Positions 13,305 through 35,809 of a stretch of DNA of 52,425 bases are shown piece by piece; position 1 is the stretch's first letter; each line of letters starts with the position of its first letter. Source of the stretch: Candidatus Eiseniibacteriota bacterium (lineage in GTDB: Bacteria > Eisenbacteria > RBG-16-71-46 > CAIMUX01 > WJJG01); the NCBI GenBank assembly GCA_023129715.1, contig JAGMBO010000095.1, positions 1-52,425 on the forward strand, given 5' to 3'. Below the pieces are notes generated by a model. It had not been told where the DNA came from, searched no databases, and saw only the letters and a list, made by a program, of their open reading frames with translations. Made by a program: the position numbers and the translations under genes.

Positions 13305-13340
13305 GCCGCCGACCGCAGGCTCTTCAGTGCACTGGTAGCC

Positions 13341-13966
13341 GCCCCGTAGTCCGCGAAAAGGCCGTAACTCCCTGCGGTCAGGCAACTCCTCCCGCCATGA
13401 TATGGTTGCGCCATGATGCGCACACTCATATCAGCTTTGCTCGCTTTCCTCCGGGCTGCGTGGATGCCCCAGACCGCGCTGGCCCTCGAGAACGCCGCCC
13501 TCCGGCAGCAACTCACTGTCTACCTGCGGACTCAGAGGCGTGCCCGACTCCGAGCGAGCGACCGGGTGTTCTGGGTCGCCCTCTGCAGGCTCTGGCCTGA
13601 CTGGACTCGTCCTCTCGTCAGGGGGCGCGTCCGCCGCAGGCGAACCATGGGATCCCCGATCCATATCCGGAACTGAAGAGGCCTCCCCCACAGCCCGGCA
13701 AGCTCCCAGCTCTCCCCGTCCTCGGCGGCGTCCAGCACGACTACCGATTGGTGGCCCGAGCTGGCGGTCGGCCCCGTGGCACCACGATGACCGACCAGGA
13801 CCCCGGTGTGCCCAGGCGTTGGGATCGCCGCCGTGCTGCCCGAACCGGGCTATAGGGCGAAACCGCAAGTACTGTACTCTCAGCTCCAACGCTGCCACAA
13901 GCCCTGCCGATCTAAGGTCGAGTCTGCCATCTTCGCAGCGAGCGGCCTTTCCGCGGACTACGGGGC
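13341..13966 (+). mobile_element. Internally deleted insertion sequence remnant, copy A, with inverted repeats
   Basis: Positions 13341-13364 and 13943-13966 are inverted copies of each other at 23 of 24 bases (left end begins GCCCCGTAGTCCGCG). Between them lie a leader shared with two other remnants in the window and a truncated transposase start. At about 626 bp it is too short for a complete element, so this is a miniature or decayed derivative that kept both ends. No target duplication was established. Confidence 0.7.
13413..13676 (+). pseudogene. Transposase/integrase N-terminal fragment (IS copy A)
   Basis: The frame begins MMRTLISALLAFLRAAWMPQ and continues LENAALRQQLTVYLRTQRR and DRVFWVALCRLWPDWTRPLV, a typical N-terminus of IS3/IS481-like DDE integrases. 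After position 13620 the similarity to copy B (25360) stops and a short unrelated tail leads to a stop. The catalytic DDE region is missing. It is non-functional. Confidence 0.75.
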
Positions 13967-17600: not shown

Positions 17601-19641
17601 GTGCAGGGAGGAGGGGGTGGCCATAGCCAATGCTAGGTTGATTGATCCAGAGGGCGAGGAGATAGTATGGGCCGTGGGCAACGCCCCCGTCGAGGCCAAT
17701 GCCCCCACCGTGATTGAGATTGATTTCGATGGGAGGTGGATTTACGGGAACATGGTTGACGGGCCATATCATCTTGGGGATGTCCTTGTGTACCACACTG
17801 GGGAACCTGGGGAGTCCGCGTCCATGGCGGACGGTTGTCCCACATCCGGCTACGCGGCTCAGGATTTCGAGCCCGCCGCGATCATTTCTGGGGCGGTTCT
17901 TTACAACGGAGAGCCGGTCGGCAGCGCGTATATTTCCGTGGAGGGGGCAGATGCCGACTTCTCCAATACACAGGGGATCTACAAGCTCACGCTGCTCAAT
18001 GATGGGCACTATCGGATGACGATTGATGCCCCGCCCGGATTGGATGTTGAGTCCTGGCAGATCTTCGTCAATGGAACTCTCGTAGGCGTGGGAAGCTCCG
18101 TTGAGGTCGATGTAAGTGTCGGTGAGGCCAAGCACGTTGATTTCAGCGCACTCGTTAACTCTCCACCTGAGATCAACAGTATCGAACCAGCATTGCAGAA
18201 TGTTCAGTATAGCGACGCAATCGCGCTAGTGATCATCATGGTATCCGATCCCGATGGCGATCCGATCACTGTGTCGGCCGAGCCGGCGCTCAACGCCCTT
18301 GTGGTGGCGCCGGTCGGTCATGACACGTGGGGCCTGTCAGGGCAGATCTTACAGGCTGCGGGCACATACGAGATTGCCTTGACCGCAAGCGATGGCCAGG
18401 CAGACAGCGAGCCGGCGACTTTCACTATTGTCGTGGAGCCTGAAGACGTGGAGGTTTCATTCGTCAGGGAGAATCCAGTCGTGGTCGAGGTCACCAATCC
18501 AGGTGATGACAGTGGCCCCTTCTCCCTCAGCGTCGATGTCATGGAGTTTGATGATCCAGACAATGTTCCGGGTGACAGGAACTCAGCGGGAAACATCAGC
18601 CTCGCGGACATCTCTATGAGTCTCCTTCCCGTTGGCCCTGGTCCAACCGTGACCGGCAGTTGCAGCATGCAGGCGGTCACCCCCGGTCTGTCAGATCCGG
18701 ACAGTCCCTATGACTATGATGTGTCTACGGTTGAGTATTCTTTTGCTGATGCGCCGGTGAACACCTACAGCGTGGCTGTGGAGGTGAATGGGACTGAGTT
18801 TTATGTCGGTGAAGGTGAAGATGTCCTGGTCGTCTCTGACCCCAGCCTGGGCTTCGCTACGGGAGGCGGGCACTTTTTCTGGCCAGGCACTGCTGGCCCG
18901 GGTACCTCCTACACTGGTGACCGCACCAGTTTCGGATTCAACGTCAAGCACAAGCACAAGAACAATGGGGGCGCAAGGGGGGGCCTGCTAGTGATCCGCC
19001 ACCTTGACGATGGCTCCATCTTCCGACTGAAGGGCAATGCGATGATTGGCATCGCGATCGGCGAATCAGACGATGGAGGCATATCGTTTGGCTGGTCATC
19101 GTTTGTCGGAAAGTCCACGTATCAGGAACCCGCTTGGCCGGAAGCCTTGGGCAACTATCGATTCACAGTGTATGTGGAGGATCGCGGTGAGCCTGGTGCA
19201 GATAACGACCGATTTTGGATCGAGACTCGGGATCGTGACGGGTTCGTGACGCCCGGGCTCTCCCTCGAAGGGCCCGCTGAAGCCAACGCTGTCACACTCA
19301 CCGGCGGGAATATCTCTGTCCCCCACGGAGGTGGTGGCAGCAAAGATGGCCTCGCGGGCAACGATCGTCCCGTGCCCGAAGCGTTCGCGTTGGGCGAGAT
19401 CCGCCCCAATCCTATTAAGACGAGAGCCGTAATCAGATTCCAACTTCCTGAGCCGGTCCCCGTCAGTCTTGTTATCTATGACATTTCAGGCAGGGTCGTG
19501 GCCCGGGTCATCGATGCTCCCATAGATGCGGGCTTCCACGAAGCGCCATGGGAGGCCGCCGGCCTGAGTAGCGGTATCTATACATGCAGAATCCAGGCTG
19601 GCACGTTTGTCGAGACTCAACGTGTTGTTGTGGTGAGGTAG
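14632..19641 (+). CDS. Giant secreted multidomain protein: GEVED, transglutaminase-like, Ca-binding repeats, FlgD-like tag
   Basis: The 1669-residue protein starts six bases after GGAGGTGA and has an N-terminal hydrophobic export segment (PIVLTLGLFLAGSGIV). A GEVED-like module carries INAWIDWDGDNVWEAGEK near residue 130. Residues 355-500 look like a transglutaminase-like domain with a Cys (C420/C421 in GCCYHFGELW), His481 (SSHSFGQ) and Asp495 (YYDPTFG) in the right order. Four repeats of about 120 residues each begin with an acidic DxDxDG-type loop at D608, D732, D849 and D973. A carboxypeptidase-regulatory-like Ig fold (from 1081), a cadherin-like fold (SDPDGDPITV, from 1175) and a post-COAP-1-like domain (from 1410) follow. 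The C-terminal 80 residues (NPIKTRAVIRFQLP to QRVVVVR) are a FlgD-like/type IX-type sorting module. It is most likely a surface or secreted protein. Confidence 0.9.
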   Translation: MLRAEKKVISSCPRQPRALPFVGHGICPIVLTLGLFLAGSGIVRVGYTTNQRSLPPEPPPVNTLLPLAPGYCPSIGGSHLYESIQSVQIERMEDVLRITVNIYIANPTGCTAGSSCPEYDNSPEYINAWIDWDGDNVWEAGEKVLDVALTGYLGINYHGTMTAVRQVAIPPNAVPSTWMRTNLGWDYDPNDPCAYSWTWGDVHDQVVELDPIRVRVLKVETVDRVPIKDISPTLFERSYGSPPDCDLSDILVGMLKPVAAAFSRGALGLKVTLGYCPEPPSWQPRIVCSWDIDEAGIHEEVTTFGWEKQFNMLLPLKIGEYDLDIGFRVYDDEESLVDAVSLSGYTLYVTYDMPYLGEPLEEHWLRAATEWARNANSAFAVCNSLCDHIYGPAPLFYDPGVGFGGGEWKQFLAGNRDTGCCYHFGELWCKVGQILGIESAPAGYDEKYFITKTPAISLDNNTGNILNGSSHARDRWRFSSHSFGQYPLGISHYYDPTFGDKGFSDPEGYIQWYYTSLILHVPLPPELPSVVGRRFASEDGSEFVDLYDQDFQGFLAYHYYGPYPATPESPPAIRMMPASASGTLASIDFVGSTPSAAFTGSYSLHPTDTDADGRFNYLAVDVEVDVIEPEGHRLIGYLVKDDLLVSDRGTIGSSVPAEYPVAPEPGLNTVSARFSGEDIHRSGEDGLFTLYFSLIDATGAPIDNLVISTHLNHSDYSETPARILGITDQGIDDNGDGLFERLEVQASVAADVPGSYLLLGTLASDGTLVGATSSRRTLAAGERLVPLEFEGNHISRAGHDGPYTVTLSLEGDHVGVIHTRSFATSAYVHSQFQQDEAALPYLYNELPLDFDNDGLYDILRIEGQVTTAVAGSYRFSGWLQDGMGETIDLYQVAADLDAGPHTVQFDFAGPLINQHQVDGPFRLAFIAVHEEVEGLILTDIPAYMTSAYGWSEFAGPVQPLIMLTGECADFGRDTNANGLFDFLTVQVGVVCREEGVAIANARLIDPEGEEIVWAVGNAPVEANAPTVIEIDFDGRWIYGNMVDGPYHLGDVLVYHTGEPGESASMADGCPTSGYAAQDFEPAAIISGAVLYNGEPVGSAYISVEGADADFSNTQGIYKLTLLNDGHYRMTIDAPPGLDVESWQIFVNGTLVGVGSSVEVDVSVGEAKHVDFSALVNSPPEINSIEPALQNVQYSDAIALVIIMVSDPDGDPITVSAEPALNALVVAPVGHDTWGLSGQILQAAGTYEIALTASDGQADSEPATFTIVVEPEDVEVSFVRENPVVVEVTNPGDDSGPFSLSVDVMEFDDPDNVPGDRNSAGNISLADISMSLLPVGPGPTVTGSCSMQAVTPGLSDPDSPYDYDVSTVEYSFADAPVNTYSVAVEVNGTEFYVGEGEDVLVVSDPSLGFATGGGHFFWPGTAGPGTSYTGDRTSFGFNVKHKHKNNGGARGGLLVIRHLDDGSIFRLKGNAMIGIAIGESDDGGISFGWSSFVGKSTYQEPAWPEALGNYRFTVYVEDRGEPGADNDRFWIETRDRDGFVTPGLSLEGPAEANAVTLTGGNISVPHGGGGSKDGLAGNDRPVPEAFALGEIRPNPIKTRAVIRFQLPEPVPVSLVIYDISGRVVARVIDAPIDAGFHEAPWEAAGLSSGIYTCRIQAGTFVETQRVVVVR

Positions 19642-19756
19642 CACCACCACGATGAAATCATTAGGAACCTAAGGGCGGGAACAGGCATCGGCTCTCGGCC
19701 AGACCGGGCGTCCGTTGGCCTTGTCTTCATCCTTTTAGCTGCCAGCCCCGGGAGCA

Positions 19757-19890
19757 CCCGTACTCCGCGAAAAGGCCGTAACTCCCTGCGGTCAGGCGGA
19801 TGTGCTCGCTGTGATATGGTCCTGCCCATGATTCTCGCCCTTGTGTCTGCACTGGAATGGGCGGGGCAACAGAACGCTCTGCTCCCCATG
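19757..19890 (+). mobile_element. Insertion sequence remnant, copy C (5' end only)
   Basis: The segment repeats the leader found at 13350 and 25295 (TCCGCGAAAAGGCCGTAACT, then CCCTGCGGTCAGGC). It is followed by a decayed start region (MILALVSALEW) that resembles the transposase start of the other copies in position only. No downstream part or right end is visible. It ends where the 20-bp repeat locus begins. Confidence 0.6.
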
Positions 19891-19911
19891 CTGCCCGCAC
19901 ACTCGCCTCCG

Positions 19912-19970
19912 AAAACATCTGCTCGCACCCGAACACTTCTGTTCGCTTCCGCACAGTTGTGCACCACGGT
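19912..19970. repeat. Short tandem repeat family (20-bp unit), locus 1
   Basis: The core unit AACACTTCTGTTCGCTTCCG is at 19932-19951, flanked by a diverged unit before it (AACATCTGCTCGCACCCG) and part of one after it. The perfect palindrome CGAACA-CTTC-TGTTCG is at 19930-19945. The same family recurs at 41328 and 42141. Its position is about 120 bases before the exported endonuclease gene. Confidence 0.65.
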
Positions 19971-20089
19971 GAGGCAGCAGTAGCTCTCCGCGAGGCACCG
20001 AATCCCGTATTGATTCCTGCCGCCGGGGACAGTAGGATCCCCAGGTCTGACAAAGGCAACTCTGCGAATGTGGAAAGCGAGGTGGTGAG

Positions 20090-20893
20090 ATGCCAGTGCG
20101 GTCACTTGGCCTTGCCCTGTCCCTTTGTGCGGTCCTCGCCTTCGGGAGTGCCTCAGCCCAGCGTCCCGAGATCCACTGCAAGCACTTCTTCTTCGGCTAT
20201 CCCTACGGCACTCCCGAGGCCAACGACCTCGTCATCCGGGACCCCTATGCCCTCTCCAACAACGATGAGACCAAGTTCGCCGACTGGGTCGCCTATCGCC
20301 TCGATCCCTGGACCGTCGCAGCTCGCAGCGATGCCTGTCGCGAGTGGCACTCCGACCCCTGGCTAGATCCGGATGAGACGCTGGAAGATGACGACTACGA
20401 CCATGCCCATTCAGAACTCGGCACCGACCGCGGCCATCAGGCACCGCTGGCCTCGTTCAGAGGGGATCCCGACTGGTGGCAGACGAACTACCTCTCGAAC
20501 ATCACGCCCCAGAGCAGTGGTATGAACCAGGGCCCCTGGATGAGACTGGAGGAGGCTGTCCGGGATATCGTCCGCGAGTGGCGGGTTGTCTGGGTCATGA
20601 CCGGCCCGCTCTACGAGCAGGAGATGGATCCCCTGCCGGAAGCTGACGAGGACCACACCATCCCCTCGGGATACTGGAAGATCGTTGCCATAGGTGAGAT
20701 CGGTGACCCGACCAGCGTCCGGGCGACGGCCTTCGTGATGGACCAGGACACGCCGCGGCAGGCGAACTACCAGGACTACATCGTCTCAATCGATGAGATC
20801 GAGCAACGGACCGGCCTGGACTTCTTCTGGGCGCTGCCTGCCTACATGGAGACCCAAGTGGAGAGTGCTGTTGGCGTCTGGCCACCGCAATAA
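20090..20893 (+). CDS. Exported DNA/RNA non-specific endonuclease (DRGH family)
   Basis: The 267-residue protein starts after a GAGGTGGTGAG site and opens with a signal peptide (SLGLALSLCAVLAFGSASAQ). The hallmark DRGH motif is at residues 113-116, with His116 as the general base. N137 (NITPQSSGMNQGPW) is in the place of the metal-ligand Asn and N145 follows in the same conserved block. These belong to the beta-beta-alpha-metal NucA/endonuclease G family, which cuts DNA and RNA without sequence preference using a single Mg or similar ion. The rest (VVWVMTGPLYE, IPSGYWKIV) matches the family fold. It heads a tightly spaced four-gene cassette. An exported nuclease may serve in nutrient scavenging, defence against extracellular DNA, or competition; the choice cannot be made here. 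Confidence 0.92.
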   Translation: MPVRSLGLALSLCAVLAFGSASAQRPEIHCKHFFFGYPYGTPEANDLVIRDPYALSNNDETKFADWVAYRLDPWTVAARSDACREWHSDPWLDPDETLEDDDYDHAHSELGTDRGHQAPLASFRGDPDWWQTNYLSNITPQSSGMNQGPWMRLEEAVRDIVREWRVVWVMTGPLYEQEMDPLPEADEDHTIPSGYWKIVAIGEIGDPTSVRATAFVMDQDTPRQANYQDYIVSIDEIEQRTGLDFFWALPAYMETQVESAVGVWPPQ

Positions 20894-20910
20894 CCCTGGA
20901 GGGCTATGAA

Positions 20911-21534
20911 ATGGCCTCAGACAAAGGGACCGAAGATGCCAAGAGGTTCGCGCGGTGGAAGCGAACGAGCTACGTGGTCCTGCTCGCCCTACTCGCCTTG
21001 ACGCTGCTCTGGTCGAAAGCCTTCATAGCGCTGCGGATCGCAGAGGTCTCGGCGGAGACCATCATGAGCCTCATCGGGTCACTTCTGGTCGTCACCGCTC
21101 TCCTGGAGCGATCTCTAGAGGTCTTCATCAATGCCACGCGCAAGCATGGCCGGGCGCGGTGTGACTTGGCCATGAAGGCGGCCAAGGCGCGACTCAAGGA
21201 GGCGACCACACCCGAGGAGAAGAAGGGTCCCCAGGCGAGCCTGGAGACGGCGCAGGAGACCCTGACGGCCTACAAGAGTGACACGGGCCGCATCGCAGCT
21301 CTCTGGGGCATGGTCGGCGGCGTCCTGATCAGCCTGGCGGGCATCCGGGTGCTCCACTCGCTGCTGGCCCCGAACGTCATCATCGAGAACTCAACTCAAT
21401 ACATGCTCTTCTCGGTGGTGGACGTGTTCGTCACCGGCCTCCTGCTGGCCGGTGGCTCCGATGGACTCCACCAGGTCGCCGCACTTCTGACCGGCTACTT
21501 CGAGAAGAAGAAGGAAGCGGTGCAGGATTCGTAG
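20911..21534 (+). CDS. Four-helix membrane protein with charged coiled coil
   Basis: The gene starts 17 bases after the endonuclease stop with a GGAGGGC site. The 207-residue protein has membrane segments at about 20-38, 48-67, 130-152 and 166-186, the first pair and second pair being separated by a highly charged, helical stretch (KHGRARCDLAMKAAKARLKE to ETLTAYKSDTG) that probably forms a cytoplasmic or periplasmic coiled coil. The C-terminal tail is Lys/Glu-rich. No known family was recognised. Its place directly behind the nuclease gene suggests a joint role, for example as export partner, immunity protein or anchor; all of that is inference. Confidence 0.75.
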   Translation: MASDKGTEDAKRFARWKRTSYVVLLALLALTLLWSKAFIALRIAEVSAETIMSLIGSLLVVTALLERSLEVFINATRKHGRARCDLAMKAAKARLKEATTPEEKKGPQASLETAQETLTAYKSDTGRIAALWGMVGGVLISLAGIRVLHSLLAPNVIIENSTQYMLFSVVDVFVTGLLLAGGSDGLHQVAALLTGYFEKKKEAVQDS

Positions 21535-21559
21535 CCTTGGCGGAGGAGGATCCCCGATC

Positions 21560-21862
21560 ATGGCCATGCTGAACAAGAACCGATGCAAGAACTTCGTCTA
21601 TCAGTTCTTCCTGACGGAGGGGTGGTTGCCCCCAGGCACAACGCCGAAGAACTGGTCGGCCGTGACGATCGGCGAACTGGGCATCGACGACCCACCCCTC
21701 CCGAGTGACCCGCACTTGCAGAAGAGGCGCGTCGCGCTCGACCTGCAGAACTTTTTCGCCCTCCTGGGGGGCAAGCTGCCATCACCGCTCTCCCAGCTCA
21801 AGCGGCGCAGCCTGACTCTGGGAGGATTCGCTGACTGGTGTCATGCCAACCAGGAGGGCTAG
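21560..21862 (+). CDS. Hypothetical 100-aa protein in the nuclease cassette
   Basis: The ATG at 21560 follows a strong GGAGGAGG site and lies 25 bases after the previous stop. The protein has no signal peptide or membrane segment. It contains phrases such as NRCKNFVYQFFLTEGWLPPG, TIGELGIDDPPLP and LTLGGFADWCHANQEG. Helical segments dominate and two Cys residues lie near the ends. No family recognised. It is likely a soluble cytoplasmic member of the cassette. Confidence 0.65.
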   Translation: MAMLNKNRCKNFVYQFFLTEGWLPPGTTPKNWSAVTIGELGIDDPPLPSDPHLQKRRVALDLQNFFALLGGKLPSPLSQLKRRSLTLGGFADWCHANQEG

Positions 21863-21864
21863 CC

Positions 21865-22866
21865 ATGCGAAGACTCATCGGACTCGCAGTACTCCTGCCG
21901 CTCACGTGCATCGCTGCCAATGCTGCCGAAGGTCTCAGCCATGACTTCAGCTATGATATCGATATCCGGGAGGCGGTGGATGGAAGTGACGCCCTCGGCA
22001 TTGACTTCGATCTCCACCTGGACCTCGCGAGGGGCGCAGAGATCGAGCCAGGGCACAGATTCCATCTGGCGACGCGTTTCTCTGGATACCAGAACTTCGA
22101 TAGTGATCGGCGCGACATCAACCACATGCTCGGGGAGCTGGCGCTACGCGGAGATCTCTACCTCCCACAGGCACCGAAGACGGTTGAGGTCGAGAAGGTC
22201 CAGCAGTGGCTCAAGCTCTCGAACAGCCCACCAGAGAGCTTGACAGTAGAGGACATGCAGGAGCTGACGCGCCTCTCGCGGATCATGCGGGGGTTCGATG
22301 CCGATACTGGCGAATCGCCAGCCCGAGTGGTTGGCTACCTATCCTATGATCTCCATTACCGATTCGAGACGACTCAGGATGTGACCGCCAAGCTGCACGC
22401 ATTCGGCCTTGGCGCGAGCGCCGAGATGCCCTTGCTGGGAGAGATTCTTGATGCGGTACTGGGCGTGACCCGTAGCGAGGAGCCCGAAGGCAGGAGAGCC
22501 AGACCCCTCCTGCTCTATGCCGCCATCGACCTCGCCACGTCAGAGGATCTGCTCCCAACCTACGACCACCTCAGGGACGACGACACCCTGTGGAGAGGAC
22601 GCATCGAACTCGCCTGGAGGACTTCCATCCTGAGGAATCAGAAGCTGACTCTCAGCTGGCAGGGCGAAGTCCTCTTCGATGCACCACAGGCCATTGACGA
22701 TGCCGATCGGGAGTTCAATTCCTTCTTCGAGGCGACACTCATCATGCCGGTCAAGAACGGTGCGGGGCTCTTGGTCAAGTACGTTGATGGTCGCCTGTCC
22801 CCGACGTACGAGCAGGTGGCCGCTGCTCTCTTGGGTGTGAACCTGTCCCTGGGTGGAGATGACTAG
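21865..22866 (+). CDS. Exported protein, possible outer-membrane protein, of the nuclease cassette
   Basis: The preferred start is the ATG at 21865, two bases after the stop of the 100-aa gene, because an AGGAGG site precedes it and a signal peptide (MRRLIGLAVLLPLTCIAANA) follows at once. The mature part of about 310 residues is rich in alternating strands (GIDFDLHLDLARG, YDLHYRFETTQDVTAKLHAFG, GRIELAWRTSILRNQKLTLSWQGEV), the pattern of an outer-membrane beta barrel or a periplasmic beta sandwich. A helical insert is near residues 100-140. No family recognised. It is the last gene of the cassette. Confidence 0.7.
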   Translation: MRRLIGLAVLLPLTCIAANAAEGLSHDFSYDIDIREAVDGSDALGIDFDLHLDLARGAEIEPGHRFHLATRFSGYQNFDSDRRDINHMLGELALRGDLYLPQAPKTVEVEKVQQWLKLSNSPPESLTVEDMQELTRLSRIMRGFDADTGESPARVVGYLSYDLHYRFETTQDVTAKLHAFGLGASAEMPLLGEILDAVLGVTRSEEPEGRRARPLLLYAAIDLATSEDLLPTYDHLRDDDTLWRGRIELAWRTSILRNQKLTLSWQGEVLFDAPQAIDDADREFNSFFEATLIMPVKNGAGLLVKYVDGRLSPTYEQVAAALLGVNLSLGGDD

Positions 22867-22956
22867 CGCGGCGAAACGCATCGCCCGAATCACGGAGCCC
22901 TGCACTTGTGCCAATGGATGCTGGAGCAGTCCAAGGCCCTAGCGAAGTGAGGATGA

Positions 22957-23700
22957 ATGTGTTATGAAGAGTGGGTCAAGTCAGGGGGATCGTTAGTGCC
23001 CGATGATGCAGTACTGAAGCTCCAGAAGCGATACCACAAGCGATATCGCGAGTACATCAACTGGCCGCTGACTCGCCCGTTGTCACTCGGTGACATGGGA
23101 AGGTGGAGCAGCGGGAAGACCTTTTCCTACGAGCAGAACATTTCAGATCTGGGGGTTGCACTAGAGACGCGAACAGGCGCGGTGCTCACGTCCCGCGGCT
23201 TCACTACGAAGGGTGGCACATCCACCAAGTTCAAGGCCGCCGGTGAAGCACCGGATCTGCATACGGCACTCGTCAAAGCAAGGGCTGGAGTCAGCATCTC
23301 GCTCAGTGCTAGGTACGCCTGCGTCCTCCGCGCCAATGTACTCATCGAGGAGAGCGTTGCGAATCGGGACGAGGCCGGGAGCACTCTGATGGCACTCGAT
23401 AAGGACGAACGCTGGTGGAAGCACCGGATCGTAGTGACCGCAATACTGCGGGCCGACGCAGCCACAGTCGCGCTTTCGCATTCTTCCGCGCAGCGCGTCG
23501 ACATCAATGCCGGCGTCGATTGCATCGTGCCATTCGATCTCGCGGACGCTGAACTCAGCCTCGAGATCGGCTTCCAAGGGGAGGATACCTCCATTGATCT
23601 CGTGGCCCGGGATGTAGTTCTCGCCTTCCAGCTCTCCAAGGTCAAGAAAGGCAAATGGTGGCACTCATGGGCAGCATCTCAGGCATTCGAGCCGGAGTGA
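22957..23700 (+). CDS. Unknown 247-aa soluble protein
   Basis: The start at 22957 has GTGAGG just upstream. It follows the nuclease cassette by 90 bases and may be transcribed with it. The protein has no signal peptide. Its N-terminal third is basic and aromatic (KLQKRYHKRYREYINWPLTR), followed by a conserved-looking PLSLGDMGRWSSGKTFSYEQ block, then a long run of beta strands (VSISLSARYACVLRANVLIE, IDLVARDVVLAFQLSKVKKG). The strand-rich layout with little helix could suit a pore-forming or ligand-binding beta fold, but I recognise no family motif and make no functional claim. Confidence 0.65.
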   Translation: MCYEEWVKSGGSLVPDDAVLKLQKRYHKRYREYINWPLTRPLSLGDMGRWSSGKTFSYEQNISDLGVALETRTGAVLTSRGFTTKGGTSTKFKAAGEAPDLHTALVKARAGVSISLSARYACVLRANVLIEESVANRDEAGSTLMALDKDERWWKHRIVVTAILRADAATVALSHSSAQRVDINAGVDCIVPFDLADAELSLEIGFQGEDTSIDLVARDVVLAFQLSKVKKGKWWHSWAASQAFEPE

Positions 23701-24060
23701 GGAAGCAGCCAGGTCGTCGATCCGTCCTGAGCCCGCCCGCCTGGCTCAAACACATGTCAGCCGACCCGCCATGGCGAATCCGCAATCCCCTTTCATGCTA
23801 AGAGTTGTGAGTCGCGATGCCTGTTGGAACGATAGCCTCTCTATTGTCGCCCACGCTGCAGGCCCTCGCCGAATGGGCCGCTCCGAGCTTCCATGTGGCA
23901 CCAGCATTCGCTGTCAAGGTATCCTGGTGCAGTTGCCGTGCCCACGAGAATCGAGAGTGCACCTGCTCTGACACCACTGGAAGGCTCGATCAGGTAGTGG
24001 GCCCGCCACAGAGCCCGTGGGACCAAGGAAGCCAAGAGAATCAATAGTTCGGCACGACAT
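23701..24060. other. Non-coding stretch
   Basis: About 360 bases before the gamma-glutamylcyclotransferase-like gene. An AGCCAGG...CCTGGCT inverted repeat follows the stop at 23700 but has a long loop and no T-run. A 76-codon frame from 23817 has no ribosome-binding site and is not called. Nothing else was recognised. Confidence 0.35.
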
Positions 24061-24495
24061 ATGAAACTCTACTTCGCGTACGGATCCAACATGTGGAACA
24101 CGCAGATGCAACGGCGTTGTCCCGAGAGCAAGAAACTCGGCGTCGCCATTCTCAGGAGCTTCCGCTGGATCATTTCGATGCGTGGCTACGCAAACGTTGT
24201 CAAGTCCGCAGATGACGAGGTGGAGGGGGTGCTGTTTCAGATTTCGGATGCAGATGAAGAATCTCTGGATGGGTTTGAGGGGGTTGATAGTGGGAGTTAT
24301 GTGAAGCGGGATTTGCCTGTGTTGCACGCCAACCAAGAGCAACGTGCTCTGGTTTACATTGACCCGGTGACCACGGAAGGCAACCCGAAGGCAGAGTACG
24401 TCAACCGCATCAATGCGGCCCTACGTGATGCGCAGTTGCCCCCGGCTTACGTCATCAATCATGTGCGCCGCTTCATCCCGGAGGAGCCAACCTGA
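24061..24495 (+). CDS. Gamma-glutamylcyclotransferase-like (AIG2/GGCT fold) protein
   Basis: The 144-residue protein opens with FAYGSNM (residues 5-11), the signature loop that binds the gamma-glutamyl group in the GGCT/AIG2 superfamily. The expected catalytic Glu is at E55 in VEGVLFQIS, and the downstream LDGFEGVDSGSYVK block matches the conserved part after it. Such enzymes release 5-oxoproline from gamma-glutamyl amino acids or peptides, though many small bacterial members have uncharacterised substrates. It is monocistronic here, and the start has only a weak ribosome-binding site. The length is close to the usual 120-160 residues. Confidence 0.87.
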   Translation: MKLYFAYGSNMWNTQMQRRCPESKKLGVAILRSFRWIISMRGYANVVKSADDEVEGVLFQISDADEESLDGFEGVDSGSYVKRDLPVLHANQEQRALVYIDPVTTEGNPKAEYVNRINAALRDAQLPPAYVINHVRRFIPEEPT

Positions 24496-25254: not shown

Positions 25255-25287
25255 CTGCGCACTAACCTGACGGCCTTGCCTGTCACG

Positions 25288-25677
25288 GCCCGTGCTCCGC
25301 GAAAAGGCCGTAACGCCCTGCGGTCAGGCAACTCCTCCCGCCATGATACGGTTGTGCTCATGATGCGCACACTCATATCAGCTTCGCTCGCTCTCTTCCG
25401 GGCGGCGCTGATGCCCCGGACCGCGCTGGTCCTGGAGAACGCCGCCCTGCGGCAGCAACTCACCATCTACCTGCGTACTCAGCGGCGTGCCCGGCTCCGG
25501 GCGAGCGACCGGGCGTTCTGGCTCGCTCTCCGCAGGCTCTGGCCCGATTGGACCCGTCCTCTCGTCATCGTCAGGCCCGAAACCGTGATCGGGTGGCACC
25601 GCAAGGGCTTCAGGCTCTTCTGGCGTCGCAGACTCGCTGTCCGCCGACCGCCCCCCACCATTGACGCTCTCGGATGA
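25288..25677 (+). mobile_element. Insertion sequence remnant, copy B (5' part)
   Basis: Contains the same leader as copies A and C, here TCCGCGAAAAGGCCGTAACG followed by CCCTGCGGTCAGGC, then a truncated transposase start. No right-hand inverted repeat was found downstream. Confidence 0.65.
25360..25677 (+). pseudogene. Transposase/integrase N-terminal fragment (IS copy B)
   Basis: The frame reads MMRTLISASLALFRAALMPR, LENAALRQQLTIYLRTQRR, RAFWLALRRLWPDWTRPLVI, RPETVIGWHRKGFRLFWRRR and then stops. This is the N-terminal third of an IS3/IS481-like integrase and is longer than in copy A. The full family is about 350 residues with a DDE catalytic core, which is absent here. Confidence 0.8.
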
Positions 25678-26041
25678 CAGCCATATACTTATGTTCGTAG
25701 TTTGAGGCGATCTTCGGGAGGTTCGGCATGTTTCGCACCTTCGACATGTTGGCTGATAGTCCGTCGGAATCGACCTCCAGTCGCCCTAGTCGCACCCTGC
25801 GGGAATGCGTGATGCGATACATCCGAATCCGGCGGTTCCACTCCTTCCATGATGGGTGTGCCGAAGTCGCGATCCGCATTGGGCTCTCCGTGCATGTTGT
25901 GTTCCGAATGCTCCGGACATTGCCGATCCAACAGACGGCCCGTGTGTCTGGTTCGCCCACCGATCCCCCTCGTCTCCTCGGGGTGACGGATCCACGTCGC
26001 AAGAAACGACGATGGATTCTTTGTCGCAGTCGGGGGAATGC
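25678..26041. other. Non-coding stretch after IS copy B
   Basis: About 360 bases. Overlapping open frames on both strands lack ribosome-binding sites and natural composition. No repeat or RNA gene was recognised. Confidence 0.35.
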
Positions 26042-26248: not shown

Positions 26249-26586
26249 CTGGCGCAATGTACCGACCAATTACGAGTACACAGGACCACAACCGGTCCAT
26301 GGTGCTCGCCAACAACGGCCGCGCATCTATCGCGTCCCTCACGCCGATCAAGCCGCGACTGCCGTTTGCCGAGCCGCCGGGCTCTCGCAAGTCTTGGTAG
26401 TGCTGTGCGTTGCGAGACTGAGCGGCCGTGGGAGGGAGGCGAGCCTGTAGTCGCCCAGGCGGGCTCTCACCACCCTGTGCCTCCCCACTGGCACCGGGAT
26501 GCGCGGCGGGGTATCTTACGCCAGTCGCAGTCGTCCACCAGTGTAATGATGATGTCTGGGAAGTGGGATCAGGTCAGGAGCGGCAA
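26249..26586. other. Non-coding stretch before the DUF4145 gene
   Basis: About 340 bases with no supported gene. The CAGGAG ribosome-binding site for the gene at 26587 is at its right end. No promoter was identified with confidence. Confidence 0.35.
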
Positions 26587-27267
26587 ATGAGTGAACGCGC
26601 CAAACACTCACGAATGAAGACTGCGGGCCAGGAGATCTGGATTGCCTGCACCGGCTGTCGCCGGAGAACCTGTCATGAGATCCTCACCGGAGTCGAAGTT
26701 CATGACGAAGATCCGCTCGGCGAAGTCCAGACATGGACGAGATACATGACGGTTGCCTGCAAGGGGTGCCAGGAAGTGAGCTTCTGCGAAGAAGCTACCT
26801 GCTCGGAAGACATGGAGATCGACCCAGACGGCGCAACCAGGCTGATCCCAACCCTGAAAATATACCCGAGCCGACTCGTTGGGCGGGGCAAGATCGCTGA
26901 CGCACATCTTCTGCCACATGGCGTGTATCGCGTCTATGAGGAAGCGTATGCCGCGCTCTGCAATCAGCATCACGTTCTCGCTGGTCTCGCAATCCGCGTC
27001 TTGATTGAGGCTGTCTGCAGAGAGAGGGCGACGAAGGGCAAGACTCTCAAGTCCAGAATAGACGCCCTCGTCACCCTGGGCGTCGCTACGAGGGAAGGAG
27101 CCAGCATCCTCCACAGCTTGCGCTTCCTAGGCAACAAGGCGGCCCATGAGGCTCGCGCACATCGTACGGAGGAGTTGTCAGCGGCCTTCGATGTTGTGGA
27201 GCATCTACTTACGGGTGTCTACGTGCTGCCAAGAAGGGCCAAGAAACTGCCTGGTAAGGGCGCGTAG
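26587..27267 (+). CDS. DUF4145 protein with N-terminal Cys-rich zinc-binding region
   Basis: The 226-residue protein starts at the ATG at 26587, eight bases after CAGGAG; a longer open frame upstream has no start site. Residues 16-70 carry Cys pairs of the zinc-ribbon type (CTGCRRRTCHE, CKGCQEVSFCEEATC). The C-terminal half (YRVYEEAYAALCNQ, ALAIRVLIEAVC-like block, LHSLRFLGNKAAHEARAHRT) is a DUF4145 domain, a helical module known from restriction enzymes and other defence proteins, often fused to nucleases. Here it is a free-standing protein that converges on the hsdR gene 45 bases away. A role linked to the type I system is inferred from this closeness. Confidence 0.82.
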   Translation: MSERAKHSRMKTAGQEIWIACTGCRRRTCHEILTGVEVHDEDPLGEVQTWTRYMTVACKGCQEVSFCEEATCSEDMEIDPDGATRLIPTLKIYPSRLVGRGKIADAHLLPHGVYRVYEEAYAALCNQHHVLAGLAIRVLIEAVCRERATKGKTLKSRIDALVTLGVATREGASILHSLRFLGNKAAHEARAHRTEELSAAFDVVEHLLTGVYVLPRRAKKLPGKGA

Positions 27268-27312
27268 CAGTGCTGCTCCCCCGCCACCACCTCACTGCTC
27301 CTGCCAACCGAG

Positions 27313-30288
27313 CTACGCTGACTCTAGATACGTCAGCTCAAACACCCTCTCAGTCAGCCAACGTCGGAAAGACTCGTTGTCGCTGAACTGCTTGAAGAGT
27401 TCCGTGTCGTCTCTCAGCAACGCGGTCATTACCCGTGCCAGCGCCTTGTCGTGCTCGATCCGAGCGTTCTGCATGTCCGAGTTCTTCCTGGCGTTCTGGT
27501 AGGCAGCATCGGCTGATACCTGAGCGGGGATCTCCTCCGTGATGAGCCGGTGTACCCGGTCCTCGTCGGTCCAGGGGATGTTGCCAAACTGATCATTGAA
27601 GCTCTTGATGATGTTCGAGAGGCGGTCCAGCTCGGGTTCCGGCTTGTGTCCCCCACCGGCCCCAGGCACAGGCGGAATCTCCGCATCACCGTCCGGTAGC
27701 TGGATCTTCATCACCGCCTGCTTCTCCGCCCGGTAGCTGTCCATGTCGATGGCCTCGAGGATGCCCTTGGACAGGTCCTCCTCCTTGGGTGCTGGCAGCT
27801 TGGGCACGAGGAAGGTCAGGAAGATCGAGAGCTTCTCCCACTCGGCACTCGTGTAGGGCAGGATGGAGGCCAGGAACCCATAGGTCCGCAAGAACGCCTT
27901 CGCCTTGCCCTTGAAGTCCACCTGCCCGTCCTCGTCCAGCTCCAGGTTGTAGACCGCCACACAGGCATCCAGGATCGGGTCTAGCCTATCGCGGTCGGCA
28001 CCCTCCAGGTAGAGCTGGACCAGCTCGTCGATCTGCGCTCCCGAGTAGACCTGGTACCCGTCGAGGCCGGCCTTGAGATCATGGAGCTTGTTGGGATCCG
28101 TCTCCTCGGCCAGGATGGTCGTGCGGTAGTAGGCCGAGAAGGCATCCCGGATCGTGTCCGCGTCGTTCATGAAGTCGAGGACGAAGGTGTCGTGCTTCTT
28201 CGGGTGCGCCCGGTTCAGGCGCGAGAGGGTCTGGACCGCCCTGACCCCGGAGAGTACCTTGTCCACGTACATGGTATGGAGCAACGGCTCGTCGTAGCCG
28301 GTCTGAAACTTGTCAGCGCAGACGAGGATCCGGTATGGGTCTTCCTGGATCTTGTCCGGGATCTTGCTCGACGGGAACCCGTTGAGGGACGCCTCGGTCA
28401 CCTTGACCCCGCCGTACTCGTACTCACCCGAGAAGGCCACGATCGCCCGCCACGGGCTCTTCCGCTCTCGGAGATACTCGCTAATGGCGTGGTAGTACTG
28501 GATGGCCCGCTGGATGCCGCTTGTGACAACCATCGCCCTCGCCCGACCACCGATCTTCTGGAGACCCACCACCTGCTCGTGGAAGTGATCCACGATGATC
28601 TCCGCCTTGAGCTGGATCGCGTGCTCGTGACCTTCGACGTAGCGCCGTAACTTCTTGCGCGCACGCTTGGTATCGAATTCCGGGTCTGCAGGAATGCTCT
28701 TGACCAGCTTGTAGTAGCTCTGGACCGGGGTGTAGCTCGCCAGCACGTCCAGGATGAACCCCTCCTGGATCGCCTGCTTCATGCTGTAGCTGTGGAACGG
28801 CCGGCGCTTGACTTGCCCCCCCTCGTCGTAGGGCTCCCCGAAGATCTCAAGGGTCTTGTTCTTGGGAGTGGCGGTGAAGGCGAAGTAGCTGGCGTTTGGG
28901 AGGAGCTTCCGCGCCTCCATGATGCGGTTGATCCGGTCCTCGAAGGTCTCGTCCTCTCCCTCGGCTCCTGCCTCCGAGAGCGCAATGCTGACCGCGGCCG
29001 AGGTGCGCCCTCCCTGGCTCGAATGTGCCTCGTCGATGATGATGGCAAAGCGACGGGAGCGGTGCTCGGTTCCGATCTCGTCCAGAATGTGGGGAAACTT
29101 CTGTACCGTCGAGATGATGATCTTCTTCCCGCCCTCGATGAACGTGCGGAGGTTGGCCGAGCGATCTGCATGGCCGACGGTGGCGCTAACCTGGGCGAAC
29201 TGCTTGATCGTATCCCGGATCTGCTGATCCAGGATCCGGCGGTCAGTGACAACAATGATCGAGTCGAAGATCGTCCGACCATCCGTGCGCAGCCCAATGA
29301 GCTGGTTGGCGAGCCAGGCGATCGAGTTCGACTTACCACTCCCGGCGGAGTGCTCGATCAAGTACCGATGGCCTGCACCATGCGTCTCCGTGTGGGCCAG
29401 GAGCTTCCGGACCACGTCGAGCTGGTGGTAGCGCGGGAAGATCTGGATCCGCTTCTTCCGCCCGGTCTTCTCGCCCTTCCTCTCGATGATCTGGGTGTAA
29501 TTCTCCAGGATGTCGGTCAGGCCCTCTCGGGTGAGGATGCGCTTCCAGAGATAGTCGGTCTTGATGCCCTCGGGGTTGGGAGGGTTGCCCGCCCCGTCGT
29601 TCCAGCCCTGATCAAAGGGCAGGAACCACGAAGCCTTCCCCCTGAGATAGGTGCAGAAGCGGACTTCGTGGTCGTCCACGGCGAAATGGGCCACACAGCG
29701 CCCGAACTCGAAGAGCCGCTCGCGGGGATCCCGGTCCCTTCTGTATTGCTGGACTGCATCCTCGACGGTTTGCTTGGTGAGGCTGTTCTTCAGCTCGAAG
29801 GTGGCTATCGGGAGGCCGTTGATGAACAGGCAGAGGTCAAGGGCGAGTTGGGTTTCATCCCGGCTGTAGCGAAGCTGCCGGGTCACACTGAATCGGTTGG
29901 CCGCAAAACGCTCGACGGCAGTCGGGTTCTCAGGCGAGGGGCTGCCATAGAAGAGGTCGATGTGGTGGGGGCCGTGCTTGATCCCGGAACGCAGGACTTC
30001 GATCACCCCGCGCTTGCTGATCTCCCCCTGGATACGAGCGAGGGCTTTGCGCCGGGTGGGGCCGTCACTGGCAAGGTCCAAAGCGTCAGCCACCTCGGAC
30101 TGAGTGGCTTGGAGGAAGCGCGAGAGCTGAGCGAGATCCACGCAGTACTCTCGGTCATAGTCTTCCGGACGGCCACAAACGTAGCCAGCGCCGCCCGGCT
30201 CGACCGCAGTCCCGGAATCGCACGGTGAGCCTGTCAGGGCAGTGCAGATCAGGCGCTCGAGGCCGCGTTCGGTGGTGTCCGTCGTCAT
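27313..30288 (-). CDS. hsdR: Type I restriction enzyme, R subunit
   Basis: The 991-residue protein is the ATP-driven translocase and nuclease of a type I restriction-modification complex. The N-terminal endonuclease part has the PD-(D/E)xK-type block ALDLCLFINGLPIATFELKN near residue 165. The motor follows, with Walker A EHSAGSGKSNS near 316, the DEAH box IIIDEAHSSQG near 420, and helicase motifs later (FQTGYDEPLLHTMYVDK, TLSRLNRAHP). The C-terminal helical part probably contacts HsdM. The start overlaps the hsdS stop as ATGA. Length is normal for the family. It cuts unmethylated DNA far from the recognition site after translocation. Confidence 0.95.
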   Translation of the reverse strand: MTTDTTERGLERLICTALTGSPCDSGTAVEPGGAGYVCGRPEDYDREYCVDLAQLSRFLQATQSEVADALDLASDGPTRRKALARIQGEISKRGVIEVLRSGIKHGPHHIDLFYGSPSPENPTAVERFAANRFSVTRQLRYSRDETQLALDLCLFINGLPIATFELKNSLTKQTVEDAVQQYRRDRDPRERLFEFGRCVAHFAVDDHEVRFCTYLRGKASWFLPFDQGWNDGAGNPPNPEGIKTDYLWKRILTREGLTDILENYTQIIERKGEKTGRKKRIQIFPRYHQLDVVRKLLAHTETHGAGHRYLIEHSAGSGKSNSIAWLANQLIGLRTDGRTIFDSIIVVTDRRILDQQIRDTIKQFAQVSATVGHADRSANLRTFIEGGKKIIISTVQKFPHILDEIGTEHRSRRFAIIIDEAHSSQGGRTSAAVSIALSEAGAEGEDETFEDRINRIMEARKLLPNASYFAFTATPKNKTLEIFGEPYDEGGQVKRRPFHSYSMKQAIQEGFILDVLASYTPVQSYYKLVKSIPADPEFDTKRARKKLRRYVEGHEHAIQLKAEIIVDHFHEQVVGLQKIGGRARAMVVTSGIQRAIQYYHAISEYLRERKSPWRAIVAFSGEYEYGGVKVTEASLNGFPSSKIPDKIQEDPYRILVCADKFQTGYDEPLLHTMYVDKVLSGVRAVQTLSRLNRAHPKKHDTFVLDFMNDADTIRDAFSAYYRTTILAEETDPNKLHDLKAGLDGYQVYSGAQIDELVQLYLEGADRDRLDPILDACVAVYNLELDEDGQVDFKGKAKAFLRTYGFLASILPYTSAEWEKLSIFLTFLVPKLPAPKEEDLSKGILEAIDMDSYRAEKQAVMKIQLPDGDAEIPPVPGAGGGHKPEPELDRLSNIIKSFNDQFGNIPWTDEDRVHRLITEEIPAQVSADAAYQNARKNSDMQNARIEHDKALARVMTALLRDDTELFKQFSDNESFRRWLTERVFELTYLESA

Positions 30289-31760
30289 GCCTCGGTCTCC
30301 TCGGGAACTGCGTCGGGGTCATCCGCCATGGCGTCGCCCTCATCCGCGAGATCGTCGGCTTCGTCGGGCAACTCGGGCTCGTCCGCTTCGCTGGGCAAAC
30401 TGGCAGCCACCTTCCGCACATCTACCTTCCCGGAGACCACGTCGGCGATAATCTTGGCACGGAGTTCGCGGAGGAGTTTGATCTCGTGCTGTGAAGCATC
30501 CAAGGCATCCTCGACCAGCAAGATCTTGTTCTCGACCAACTCCACTATGCCCCGCTGCTCAGCCAGGGGGGGAAGGGGGACAGGCAGGCGGGCCATCATC
30601 GACGCGTTCAGATTGGCCATCGTTGCGCCGATGGCCAACAAACCAAGGGAATCTCGGATGGCTGACAGACTGAACACCCGAACAAGATATGCGGAGATCA
30701 GCAGTTCGCCCCGAAGGCGGATGCAAAGGCTGCCCGTTCCACACAACCAGCCCTCCTGCTCGTCTTCTACGAGAGCACAGCGCCCCAGTTCGCCACGCCT
30801 TGCAGCCACGACATCTCCTGACCGAAACCTATGCCGGTCCAGGTCCTGCGCTCGTGTCTCGCTCACGGAAACACTGGGGTCGCCGTGAATCCGGCCATCG
30901 TACATGTGTGATGGATTGATCACGGGCGTCCCCCCCGTGACGTAATCGCTTGCATGCAGCTGACTGCCAAAGGGGCCCGTCTGAATTGATACAGCCGCCA
31001 TGCCAAGCGGCATCACTTGCCAGTGCGCTGGGACATCCCCCAGCCACTCGATCCCAGAGGGCCTGAGCTGGACGCTCGCATCAAGCCCCCGTGTGACAGC
31101 CTGATGAATGATGGCCTGCTTCTGCTCCTCCAGGAGCGTGATCACTCTCTTCCTCGCACGGATGTACCGCCGGATTCGTCGGTCGGCGTGGTCGAGGAAG
31201 CGGACGATGGCGAATTGTTCCGGGAGTGGCGGGAGGGGTACGACCACGGATTTGATGGTGTGGTGCGACAGGCCGTAGCGCGTCACGCCGTTCGCAGAGA
31301 CGTAGTACTGGTAGGCGACGGGTGGACTCTGGAGGACTCTGAGAAGGTATGAGCCGACCACCAGCCCCGCTCTCGGCCGAAGCAATGCAATATGATATCC
31401 ACATATGAGATCGGGAGCGGCGTAGTCCACCAACGCAGGAACCCCGATATCATCCCATGTCTCCGAATCCTTCGTGATCAGTACGTCACCTGCCTCAAGC
31501 CGGAAGCGCCTGATCTCCTCTGGCGTCGCCGTAGCACGCATGAAGGGGATACGCTCAGTGATGAGCTCGTTCTTGTAGACATCGATGTAGTTACAGAGGC
31601 GGACGGGAAGCTCTTCTTTCTTGGTGTGCTTGTCGACATTGCTGACATGTATGCTTACTACGTTGCGCTGCCGCCGCACGTCCCAATGCTCCGGCACGTT
31701 CCCCAACCAGCGCACCCCCGAGTCCTTGTAGCCCGAATACGGCTTAAGTCCATCGATCAT
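30285..31760 (-). CDS. hsdS: Type I restriction-modification specificity subunit
   Basis: The 491-residue protein has the two-fold layout of HsdS. Each target-recognition domain begins with the typical YKDSGVRWLGNVPEHW / LRPSGIEWLGDVPAHW phrase and ends in a conserved LPPLPEQFAIVRFLD / LPPLAEQRGIVELVE helix that serves as spacer. It picks the two half-sites of the DNA target and holds two HsdM and two HsdR subunits. The C-terminal 40 residues are strongly acidic (EADEPELPDEADDLADEGDA), an unusual extension. Both ends overlap neighbours by four bases, so the operon order is hsdM-hsdS-hsdR. Confidence 0.95.
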   Translation of the reverse strand: MIDGLKPYSGYKDSGVRWLGNVPEHWDVRRQRNVVSIHVSNVDKHTKKEELPVRLCNYIDVYKNELITERIPFMRATATPEEIRRFRLEAGDVLITKDSETWDDIGVPALVDYAAPDLICGYHIALLRPRAGLVVGSYLLRVLQSPPVAYQYYVSANGVTRYGLSHHTIKSVVVPLPPLPEQFAIVRFLDHADRRIRRYIRARKRVITLLEEQKQAIIHQAVTRGLDASVQLRPSGIEWLGDVPAHWQVMPLGMAAVSIQTGPFGSQLHASDYVTGGTPVINPSHMYDGRIHGDPSVSVSETRAQDLDRHRFRSGDVVAARRGELGRCALVEDEQEGWLCGTGSLCIRLRGELLISAYLVRVFSLSAIRDSLGLLAIGATMANLNASMMARLPVPLPPLAEQRGIVELVENKILLVEDALDASQHEIKLLRELRAKIIADVVSGKVDVRKVAASLPSEADEPELPDEADDLADEGDAMADDPDAVPEETEA

Positions 31761-33898: not shown

Positions 33899-34128
33899 GT
33901 CCTCCTACCACCTTCCCCGGAGAGGGGCGCGGCCGCCAGATCGGCGGAGTTGGCCCCTGTAGGCACCTGGACGCGATTGACTTCCACTGGACGATACTCA
34001 AGACACCCAGTAAGGATAAGGCCAGGCCGGTACTGGCTTCAAGGGCGCCATTCGGTGGCCGAGGTGCCAGGGAGGCGGGGCGAGACGGGACAGTGGCATA
34101 GGGCGTTGGCGGTGGCTATGATTCTCGC

Positions 34129-34674
34129 ATGCCTTCAGAGACGGCGAGCTTCGAGCGCGGGGACTTCTACTGGCAGATCTCGTCCGAGCCGATGCGTCGC
34201 GTGGCAGCGCGGTATGGCATCTCCGACGTTGCGCTGGCCAAGATCTGCAGGAAGCTCAAGGTGCCACGCCCCCCGCGGGGGTATTGGGCTCGCAAGGCCG
34301 CTGGAAAGCCGGTGACGCAGGACCCCCTGCCGCCTCTCCCGCAGCGTGCATCTGCAGGATACCGCATTGGGCGCTTGGTGGACCCCATCGACCTCTCAGG
34401 GGTCGGAGACGAAGCCAGACGGCTTCTGCTGCGCGAACACGACCCCGCGATGGCGGTGGCCGTCCCCGACGAACTCCGGAGACCCCACCCGTGGATCAGG
34501 AAGAGCACCAAGGCCCTGAGAACCTTCGGGAAGAGAGGCAAGCGAATCTTCGACGAGCAGGCATGTCTCGATGTCCAGGCACTGAAACCTTCTGCGTCGA
34601 CCAGCAATACCGATATCCCACGAGCGGGCCGCTCCCCCGATAGTGGGCAGGGCCCTGCCGGTAGTGTATCCTGA
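34129..34674 (+). CDS. HTH-containing protein, probably truncated at the C-terminus
   Basis: Residues 1-60 contain WQISSEPMRRVAARYGISDV, ALAKICRKLKVPRPPRGYWA and RKAAGKPV, a helix-turn-helix-bearing block I recall from hypothetical proteins in mobile and defence regions that are usually longer. A second recognisable block, RRPHPWIRKSTKALRTF and then QACLDVQA, is followed by an unrelated Ser/Pro/Gly-rich tail that ends at once. The usual continuation is missing, so the gene is probably cut by a recombination event or frameshift. It diverges from hsdM over 230 bases and could be a regulator of that operon. The ribosome-binding site is weak. Confidence 0.6.
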   Translation: MPSETASFERGDFYWQISSEPMRRVAARYGISDVALAKICRKLKVPRPPRGYWARKAAGKPVTQDPLPPLPQRASAGYRIGRLVDPIDLSGVGDEARRLLLREHDPAMAVAVPDELRRPHPWIRKSTKALRTFGKRGKRIFDEQACLDVQALKPSASTSNTDIPRAGRSPDSGQGPAGSVS

Positions 34675-34849
34675 TCGGGTCCGGGGAGATCCCTGAAGCC
34701 ACACGCCGAGGCTCCTCGGCCGCGCCGAGGACTGTTGGCATAGGGGGCATGCGAGGCGACCCGAGCGTGGGCGGCGTGGCCGAGCGTCCAGATTGCTACT
34801 GACCGCCGAGGAGACTGGTAACCCGCCAACCGGCTGAGGACTCGCCACC

Positions 34850-35809
34850 GTGACGCCGCATGACATGCTAGAGGACGCTCTGCACTCTGAACTCATCTAC
34901 AAGTACTCAGCACCCAGACTGGATCTGCTCAAGTCGACGCTCATCCGCTTCACGCAGCCAAACGGACTGAATGATCCCTTCGAGGCCAGACCTCGGCTGC
35001 TGATGGATTCCCTCGCCCCTGAGGACATTGAGAGTGCGCGAGCAGAGGCCAAGATGATGGGCCTCTCGCCGGACCTGCCCCGGGAGCAGCTCGAAGCCCT
35101 ATTCCTTCGTGGGTTTCCGGCGCACCGGATGGATGAGAGATCGTTTCCTGGGCTCTGGCCATGCCATCTTCCAGCTTTGCGAGAGGAGCCTTTCGAGAGC
35201 CTCGGAGAACTCGATCGCTTCCGAGCGGACGAGGCCGCACGGGAGTTCATGGATGCCGCAAGCAAGGAACTAGGCATTCTGTGCCTGACCGAGGATGGCC
35301 ACTCCCAGCTCATGTGGGCACACTACGCTTGTTCACACAGTGGGGTCTTGCTCACATTCCACCGAGAGCACGCCTTCTTCAAGGAGGGCATGGGACTTCA
35401 CCGCGTGGAATATGCCCCACGGAGAGTCGCAGTTACTTCCAAGGACGGGCTCTTCCGCATCTGTGGGGTCCGCTTCGAGGACGCTGTACCGCTGCCCTTG
35501 CGCGCGTTCCTCAGGAAGCATCCAGTTTGGTCTCATGAAGTGGAACTTCGCATGATGCGCGCGCTTTCTGAATCCGTTGCGCAGAGACTCGACAAGCCAG
35601 ACGTGTACCTATTCCCTGTACCTCCCACAGCACTGGCGGCAATTGTCCTCGGTGCCAGAGCATCCGCGGAGTATGTTGCAGCGGTTCGGGCGATACTCTC
35701 CTCCGATGGCCGCTGGAGTCACGTAAGGCTCTTCGAGGCCATCCTTGATGGTCAGGAGATGGCCCTGAACTACGAGGAAACCGAGATGCGACGCGGAAGC
35801 TCACGGTGA
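34850..35809 (+). CDS. DUF2971 family protein
   Basis: The 319-residue protein starts at a GTG with GAGGA ten bases upstream. It has the DUF2971 landmarks: IYKYSAPRLDLLKSTLIRFT, then QPNGLNDPFEARP near residue 40, and CLTEDGHSQLMWAHYACSHSG near 150-165. The catalytic role of this family is not known to me; members often lie in defence islands and beside restriction systems. It is followed after 137 bases by the KAP NTPase on the same strand, so both may be expressed together. A role in antiviral defence is inferred from context only. Confidence 0.8.
   Translation: MTPHDMLEDALHSELIYKYSAPRLDLLKSTLIRFTQPNGLNDPFEARPRLLMDSLAPEDIESARAEAKMMGLSPDLPREQLEALFLRGFPAHRMDERSFPGLWPCHLPALREEPFESLGELDRFRADEAAREFMDAASKELGILCLTEDGHSQLMWAHYACSHSGVLLTFHREHAFFKEGMGLHRVEYAPRRVAVTSKDGLFRICGVRFEDAVPLPLRAFLRKHPVWSHEVELRMMRALSESVAQRLDKPDVYLFPVPPTALAAIVLGARASAEYVAAVRAILSSDGRWSHVRLFEAILDGQEMALNYEETEMRRGSSR

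Follow-up and report, generated by a model that had tools for sequence, protein, structure and literature searches.

A run of four closely spaced, same-strand genes (genes 1-4; Table 1) was analysed in a stretch of 52,425 nucleotides from a Candidatus Eiseniibacteriota bacterium (contig JAGMBO010000095.1; the whole stretch is referred to as the window), which belongs to an assembly of 4.83 Mb in 186 contigs. The four genes form a real local operon headed by a nuclease of the Serratia type, but their status as a new system is not proven. A sequence-only reading of this DNA had suggested that it may be an undescribed envelope-linked nuclease system for DNA uptake, defence or competition. Genes 1-4 were found together at no other locus examined, and comparison of the sequences lends no support to a conserved four-gene system; what is seen is a real operon with an ordinary nuclease and three poorly known partners. 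The explanation favoured here, which is held with about even confidence, is that of a laterally acquired operon, the working part of which would be an ordinary exported, sequence-blind nuclease furnished with lineage-specific envelope accessories.

The genes are separated by 17, 25 and 2 bases. Purine-rich ribosome-binding sites precede each of them (GAGGTGG, GGAGGG, GGAGGAGG and AGGAGGG, in the order of the genes). The gaps and the coordinates had been given correctly by the sequence-only reading, which also noted a ribosome-binding site before each gene, as seen on checking the open reading frames (ORFs) and the sequence. Gene 4 was taken to start at the ATG at 21865; with the alternative GTG start at 21838 it would run into gene 3. 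The four genes are presumably co-transcribed. The stretch from 19640 to 24100 showed neither a promoter-like site nor, on the + strand, a terminator-like one.

Gene 1 matched the Pfam family PF01223 with an E-value of 5.5e-42 (144.4 bits, gathering cut-off 23). The best solved relative is the extracellular nuclease of Serratia marcescens (PDB 1g8t), matched over residues 36-265 at E 6.8e-59. The two have the DRGH motif (residues 113-116 of gene 1) and a signal segment in common; the difference is that gene 1 heads a four-gene operon with envelope genes. N146 and E154 were invariant in an alignment of seven sequences, comprising gene 1 and six plasmid relatives, and we take these residues to be the conserved Asn and Glu of the metal-site region of Serratia-type nucleases. 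Hydropathy prediction placed an N-terminal hydrophobic segment at residues 3-21, which is likely to be followed by a signal-peptidase site. The earlier identification of a DRGH endonuclease is borne out by both matches and by the intact motif. Judged from its sequence, gene 1 is a Serratia-type nuclease with predicted export through Sec, and nonspecific activity on DNA and RNA would be expected from its family.

The distribution of gene 1 was followed in 146 genomes at E<=1e-6. Matches were seen in eight genomes, namely this one and seven from outside the phylum, akin to it at the rank of taxonomic domain only, and none in 46 same-phylum genomes (the phylum set and the class set are the same 47 genomes, this one included). 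In a species-representative collection, the nearest relatives among the best 80 of 260 matches were at most 59% identical and came from Cloacimonadota, Vampirovibrionales, Bacteroidetes and many other groups. The absence from the 46 relatives in the phylum, together with the presence of relatives in unrelated taxa, suggests that gene 1 was probably acquired laterally.

A weak match of gene 1 to PF13930, which we take to represent the EndA-type DNA-uptake nucleases, lay below the Pfam cut-off; gene 1 scores in PF01223 and carries a signal peptide. In pneumococcus, EndA is a nuclease with a related motif that trims incoming DNA. In a DNA-uptake role for the operon, gene 4 would let DNA in through the outer membrane as a port, and the nuclease would trim the DNA that enters. 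That a single operon combines an outer-membrane-like gene 4 with an exported nuclease agrees with such a role. However, the window proteins scanned (a part of the window genes) included no sign of a competence gene, the cassette is not conserved, and a freely diffusing nuclease would destroy the DNA meant for import. DNA uptake is thus considered very improbable.

Conservation of the cassette was addressed at the loci of nuclease relatives. The genome loci were the best 80 of 260 matches, the other 180 not having been kept; at least 2 kb was available on both sides in 62 of the 80 and downstream in 68, so that some neighbourhoods were short. Neighbouring ORFs came from a simple longest-ORF picker, and some of those listed are not real genes. 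Genes 2-4, and likewise gene 5, which follows them, were near nuclease relatives in 0/80 genome loci, 0/42 viral-contig loci and 0/6 plasmid neighbourhoods, chance-level rows apart. Three such rows were rejected: gene 3 in L039 (E 0.18 over 19 residues, antisense to a racemase-like gene), gene 3 in L110 (E 0.90) and gene 4 in L093 (E 0.65). A conserved four-gene cassette was rejected on these counts. As far as could be tested, nuclease relatives occur apart from genes 2-5, gene 2 relatives occur in unrelated settings in four of four cases, and genes 3 and 4 are without detectable relatives. The search for related loci works with short exact peptide patterns and may overlook distant relatives in the case of genes 3 and 4. 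Since the four-gene arrangement was not found elsewhere, it was not filed as a new system. The solitary nuclease relatives and the decoupling of gene 2 from the nuclease lead to the reading of genes 2-4 as lineage-specific accessories.

Other partners were seen beside the nuclease family. A downstream ORF of at least 80 amino acids started within 80 bases of the nuclease in 22 of the 80 genome loci, and within 30 bases in 12. Unrelated membrane or lipoprotein-like genes lay close downstream at seven loci (L061, L064, L091, L101, L106, L035, L060). Two of these, from distant metagenome-assembled genomes, carry operons in which the nuclease is followed by two genes for transmembrane proteins (L061:6001-8116 and L064:5944-7508); the paired two-helix membrane proteins are related, and a lipoprotein-like gene comes next in L061. 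In the Sphingomonas loci L091, L101 and L106, a lipoprotein-like gene overlaps the nuclease by 4 bases. These arrangements resemble the window operon in having the same nuclease family with envelope proteins close after it, but their partners had no detectable relation to genes 2-4, and those of L061 had no match on plasmids. The different partners at the two sets of loci suggest that the nuclease family acquires envelope partners, different each time. An envelope link is thus possible for the family, but not by way of the window cassette, and if a nuclease-envelope unit is conserved, the L061/L064 arrangement is the likelier candidate of the two. A DUF2235 gene (Tle1-like phospholipase, PF09994) was also observed near the nuclease in L073, L082, L093, L104, L106, L108 and L109, directly upstream in several.

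The earlier description of the four products, in which the first and last are exported and the two between them are a membrane and a soluble protein, agrees with the signal segments of genes 1 and 4 and with the four membrane segments predicted in gene 2. That genes 2-4 belong to no recognised family also holds, as Pfam, NCBIfam, PADLOC and PHROGs gave no match and sub-threshold rows for gene 2 only; NCBIfam was uninformative for gene 1 as well. The hydropathy profile of gene 2 has short outer loops and a positively charged loop of 60 residues between helices 2 and 3, in keeping with the coiled-coil membrane protein described before. By the positive-inside rule, both termini and this coiled-coil-like loop are probably cytoplasmic. 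Five members of the family were seen, namely gene 2 and relatives in genomes G126, G037 and G287 and on one Rhizobium plasmid. The relatives share the positions E-R-x-x-E, R-x-A, G-x-L, G-x-R-x-L and GG, and from its sequence gene 2 is assigned to a small undescribed four-helix membrane family. In G126 and G287 the relative is a free gene amid unrelated genes. The G037 and Rhizobium relatives are fusions, with a C-terminal region that matches CHAP below threshold; the G037 fusion is followed by a patatin-like gene. Loci with the four-helix module joined to a CHAP-like region are L014:5022-6215, where a patatin-like gene follows, and L012:5860-6873. No nuclease match at E<=0.01 was present in the three whole genomes with gene 2 relatives; the same query did match eight genomes in the 146-genome search. 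Conversely, no gene 2 relative was found in the seven other nuclease-bearing genomes of that search, nor in viral contigs or phage records.

The CHAP-like domain in two of the four gene 2 relatives touches on another explanation, in which the operon would be what is left of a phage-type module for lysis or superinfection, made of a nuclease and a holin-like membrane protein. Holin or endolysin relatives were present in the same fetched stretch as the nuclease relative in 18 of 42 viral contigs. The nuclease lay about 100 bases upstream of holin-endolysin in several, and 21 of 41 viral nuclease ORFs had a lipobox-like start. In L136, L142, L143, L146, L157 and others, the nuclease is at about 5800-6700 of each locus, near phage lysis genes. 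Such prophage arrangements show the same nuclease family beside membrane proteins, but there the partners are holins and endolysins. The window cassette has no endolysin, and genes 2-4 matched no PHROG and were not found in viral contigs or phage records. A lysis remnant is the least probable of the explanations weighed.

Gene 3 had no relatives in Pfam, NCBIfam, PADLOC, PHROGs, the 146 genomes, plasmids, phages or viral contigs. Its single-sequence model reached a predicted local distance difference test (pLDDT) score of 63 as the best of five, the other four lying at 42-48. Foldseek returned nothing significant; its top entry, at E 1.9, was an acyl carrier protein. Re-alignment with VIA covered 58 chains and gave 31 rows at Z>=2, the best at 6.7, and carrier protein appeared in 16 of the 31 titles; in most of the other rows (complex I, mitochondrial entries) the matched chain was presumably the mitochondrial carrier protein. 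The sequence had no carrier-protein family match in Pfam or NCBIfam at E<=1 and lacks the D-S-L motif, which we take to be the canonical attachment motif of carrier proteins. As Z values under 8 can reflect a common arrangement only, the likeness of this weak model to the acyl carrier protein fold is suggestive and not established.

A small soluble gene 3 co-oriented with an exported nuclease could also fit competition or self-protection, in which the nuclease would harm neighbours or endanger its producer and cytoplasmic gene 3 would be the inhibitor. One nuclease relative (L026) is plasmid-borne, with a polymorphic toxin gene in its vicinity. However, Pfam revealed no secretion or delivery domain in the nuclease, gene 3 matched no inhibitor family in Pfam or NCBIfam, and it is missing at the closest nuclease relatives (the best 80 of 260 genome loci). 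The usual order is nuclease then inhibitor, and here gene 2 lies in between. Competition or self-protection is accordingly regarded as improbable.

Gene 4 starts with a predicted N-terminal hydrophobic signal segment. After it, 13 alternating strand-like segments were counted; 500 shuffled sequences averaged 5.6 (sd 1.9), and not one had as many as 13. The strand score (z about 4) was higher than that of any of the 362 length-matched background proteins. The earlier call of an exported beta-rich protein is upheld by these measures, and the strand statistics with the signal segment point to a probable outer-membrane beta-barrel. The single-sequence model (pLDDT 35.6) was unusable. No relatives of gene 4 were detectable in genomes, plasmids, phage records, viral contigs, PHROGs or Pfam.

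Table 1. Coordinates of the operon and of other features in the window.
Feature	Position	Strand	Description
gene 1	20090-20893	+	267-amino-acid ORF; Serratia-type nuclease PF01223, predicted Sec-exported, DRGH intact
gene 2	20911-21534	+	207-amino-acid ORF; predicted inner-membrane protein with four transmembrane segments, charged coiled-coil-like loop
gene 3	21560-21862	+	100-amino-acid ORF; soluble helical protein
gene 4	21865-22866	+	333-amino-acid ORF from ATG; predicted exported, amphipathic beta-strand-rich, probable outer-membrane barrel
gene 5	22957-23700	+	247 amino acids, starts M-C; 90-base gap after gene 4
repeat, left fragment	19757-19850 (repeat part at 19757-19832)	+	multicopy repeat resembling an insertion sequence (IS)
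repeat, right copy	25255-25700	+	same repeat; short transposase-like ORF, no Pfam match
repeat, third copy in window	13340-13620		same multicopy repeat
DUF4145/PD-T7-4-like gene	26428		downstream, defence-type
type I restriction system	27313-33898		downstream
DUF2971/PDC-S31 gene	34850		downstream, defence-type
PDC-S20 gene	35947		downstream, defence-type
SIR2-like gene	50865-51791		further downstream

The cassette and three further genes are enclosed by two copies of a repeat that occurs at 16 places in the genome, in agreement with the repeat-flanked setting noticed earlier. A serine recombinase, a primase and a D12 methylase lie upstream. Gene 5 gave a weak match to the PADLOC model bGSDM (E 0.0036). 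Profile comparison lent no support to a bacterial gasdermin: hhalign to three bGSDM-profile matches returned a probability of 0.2, where gene 4, used as the control, gave 0.1. Gene 5 had no BLASTP match and no relatives in the 146 genomes or on plasmids, and the literature on gasdermins yielded no lead for it, which does not show absence from print.

Downstream, defence-type genes span 26428-37365 of the window, about 3.5-13 kb from the operon, and the SIR2-like gene lies further off. This setting bears on the main rival explanation, a barrier to DNA entry directed against phages or plasmids. Here the nuclease, held in the envelope through genes 2 and 4, would cut DNA crossing the periplasm before internal restriction enzymes act, and gene 3 would sense or couple on the cytoplasmic face. 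Genes of a cyclic oligonucleotide-based antiphage signalling system (CBASS) were seen near three nuclease relatives (L091, L106 and L028), one of which is also near Ppl. In the Sphingomonas locus L091, the CBASS operon (phospholipase, cyclase, E1-E2; L091:464-4480) is about 1.5 kb from the nuclease-lipoprotein pair. The three cases were chosen by visual inspection of 86 loci and are to be taken as a lead. That phage DNA can be cut at the membrane has been demonstrated with the membrane-bound anti-phage nuclease SNIPE (PMC13190303). The likeness is in the idea of an envelope nuclease able to meet entering DNA. As described there, however, SNIPE is a single inner-membrane GIY-YIG/DUF4041 protein, unrelated to the gene 1 nuclease; genes 1-4 match neither domain in Pfam, and a defence role of the operon is hypothetical. 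PADLOC anti-phage models had no match to genes 1-4 at E<=1, and the literature gave no lead to a defence role for Serratia-type nucleases, which does not show its absence from print. Most nuclease relatives are without an envelope partner directly downstream, and the cassette co-occurs nowhere else examined. A DNA-entry barrier is thus judged doubtful, though it is the foremost alternative. Distinctly improbable is a new type of trans-envelope barrier, in which the gene 4 barrel and gene 2 would position the nuclease against DNA in transit, the carrier-protein-like gene 3 would couple it to metabolism or the inner membrane, and the whole would be a first line ahead of the type I restriction system.

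In the favoured explanation, that of an ordinary exported nuclease with recruited accessories, the nuclease would be made with a signal peptide, leave through Sec and fold in the periplasm, and it would cut DNA and RNA of any sequence, either in that compartment or in the cell's surroundings. Genes 2 and 4 would most likely adjust the location of the nuclease or the surrounding envelope, and gene 3 may be a cytoplasmic helical helper. Genes 2-4 would be accessories of this lineage recruited to the nuclease, and not parts of a conserved four-part machine. The main role would then be the clearing or scavenging of nucleic acid at the cell surface. Several observations weigh against this explanation. 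The tight spacing of the four genes suggests joint function over a loose gene collection, and the defence genes nearby and near some relatives point to a more specific role. The G+C content at third codon positions was 0.79, 0.84 and 0.84 in genes 1, 2 and 3, 0.72 in gene 4 and 0.69 in the next gene. This split could fit a composite origin, or a gene 4 that is not part of the cassette; as weak evidence, it may indicate that genes 1-3 arrived jointly and that gene 4 is of separate origin.

The present value of the operon is that it records, in gene 2, a small undescribed four-helix membrane family. Mobile settings of very different kinds carry the Serratia-type nuclease family, including plasmids, prophage lysis regions and CBASS neighbourhoods. 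Should the nuclease indeed be kept in the envelope by its partners, the operon would illustrate in compact form how defence or scavenging can depend on location and not on sequence recognition.

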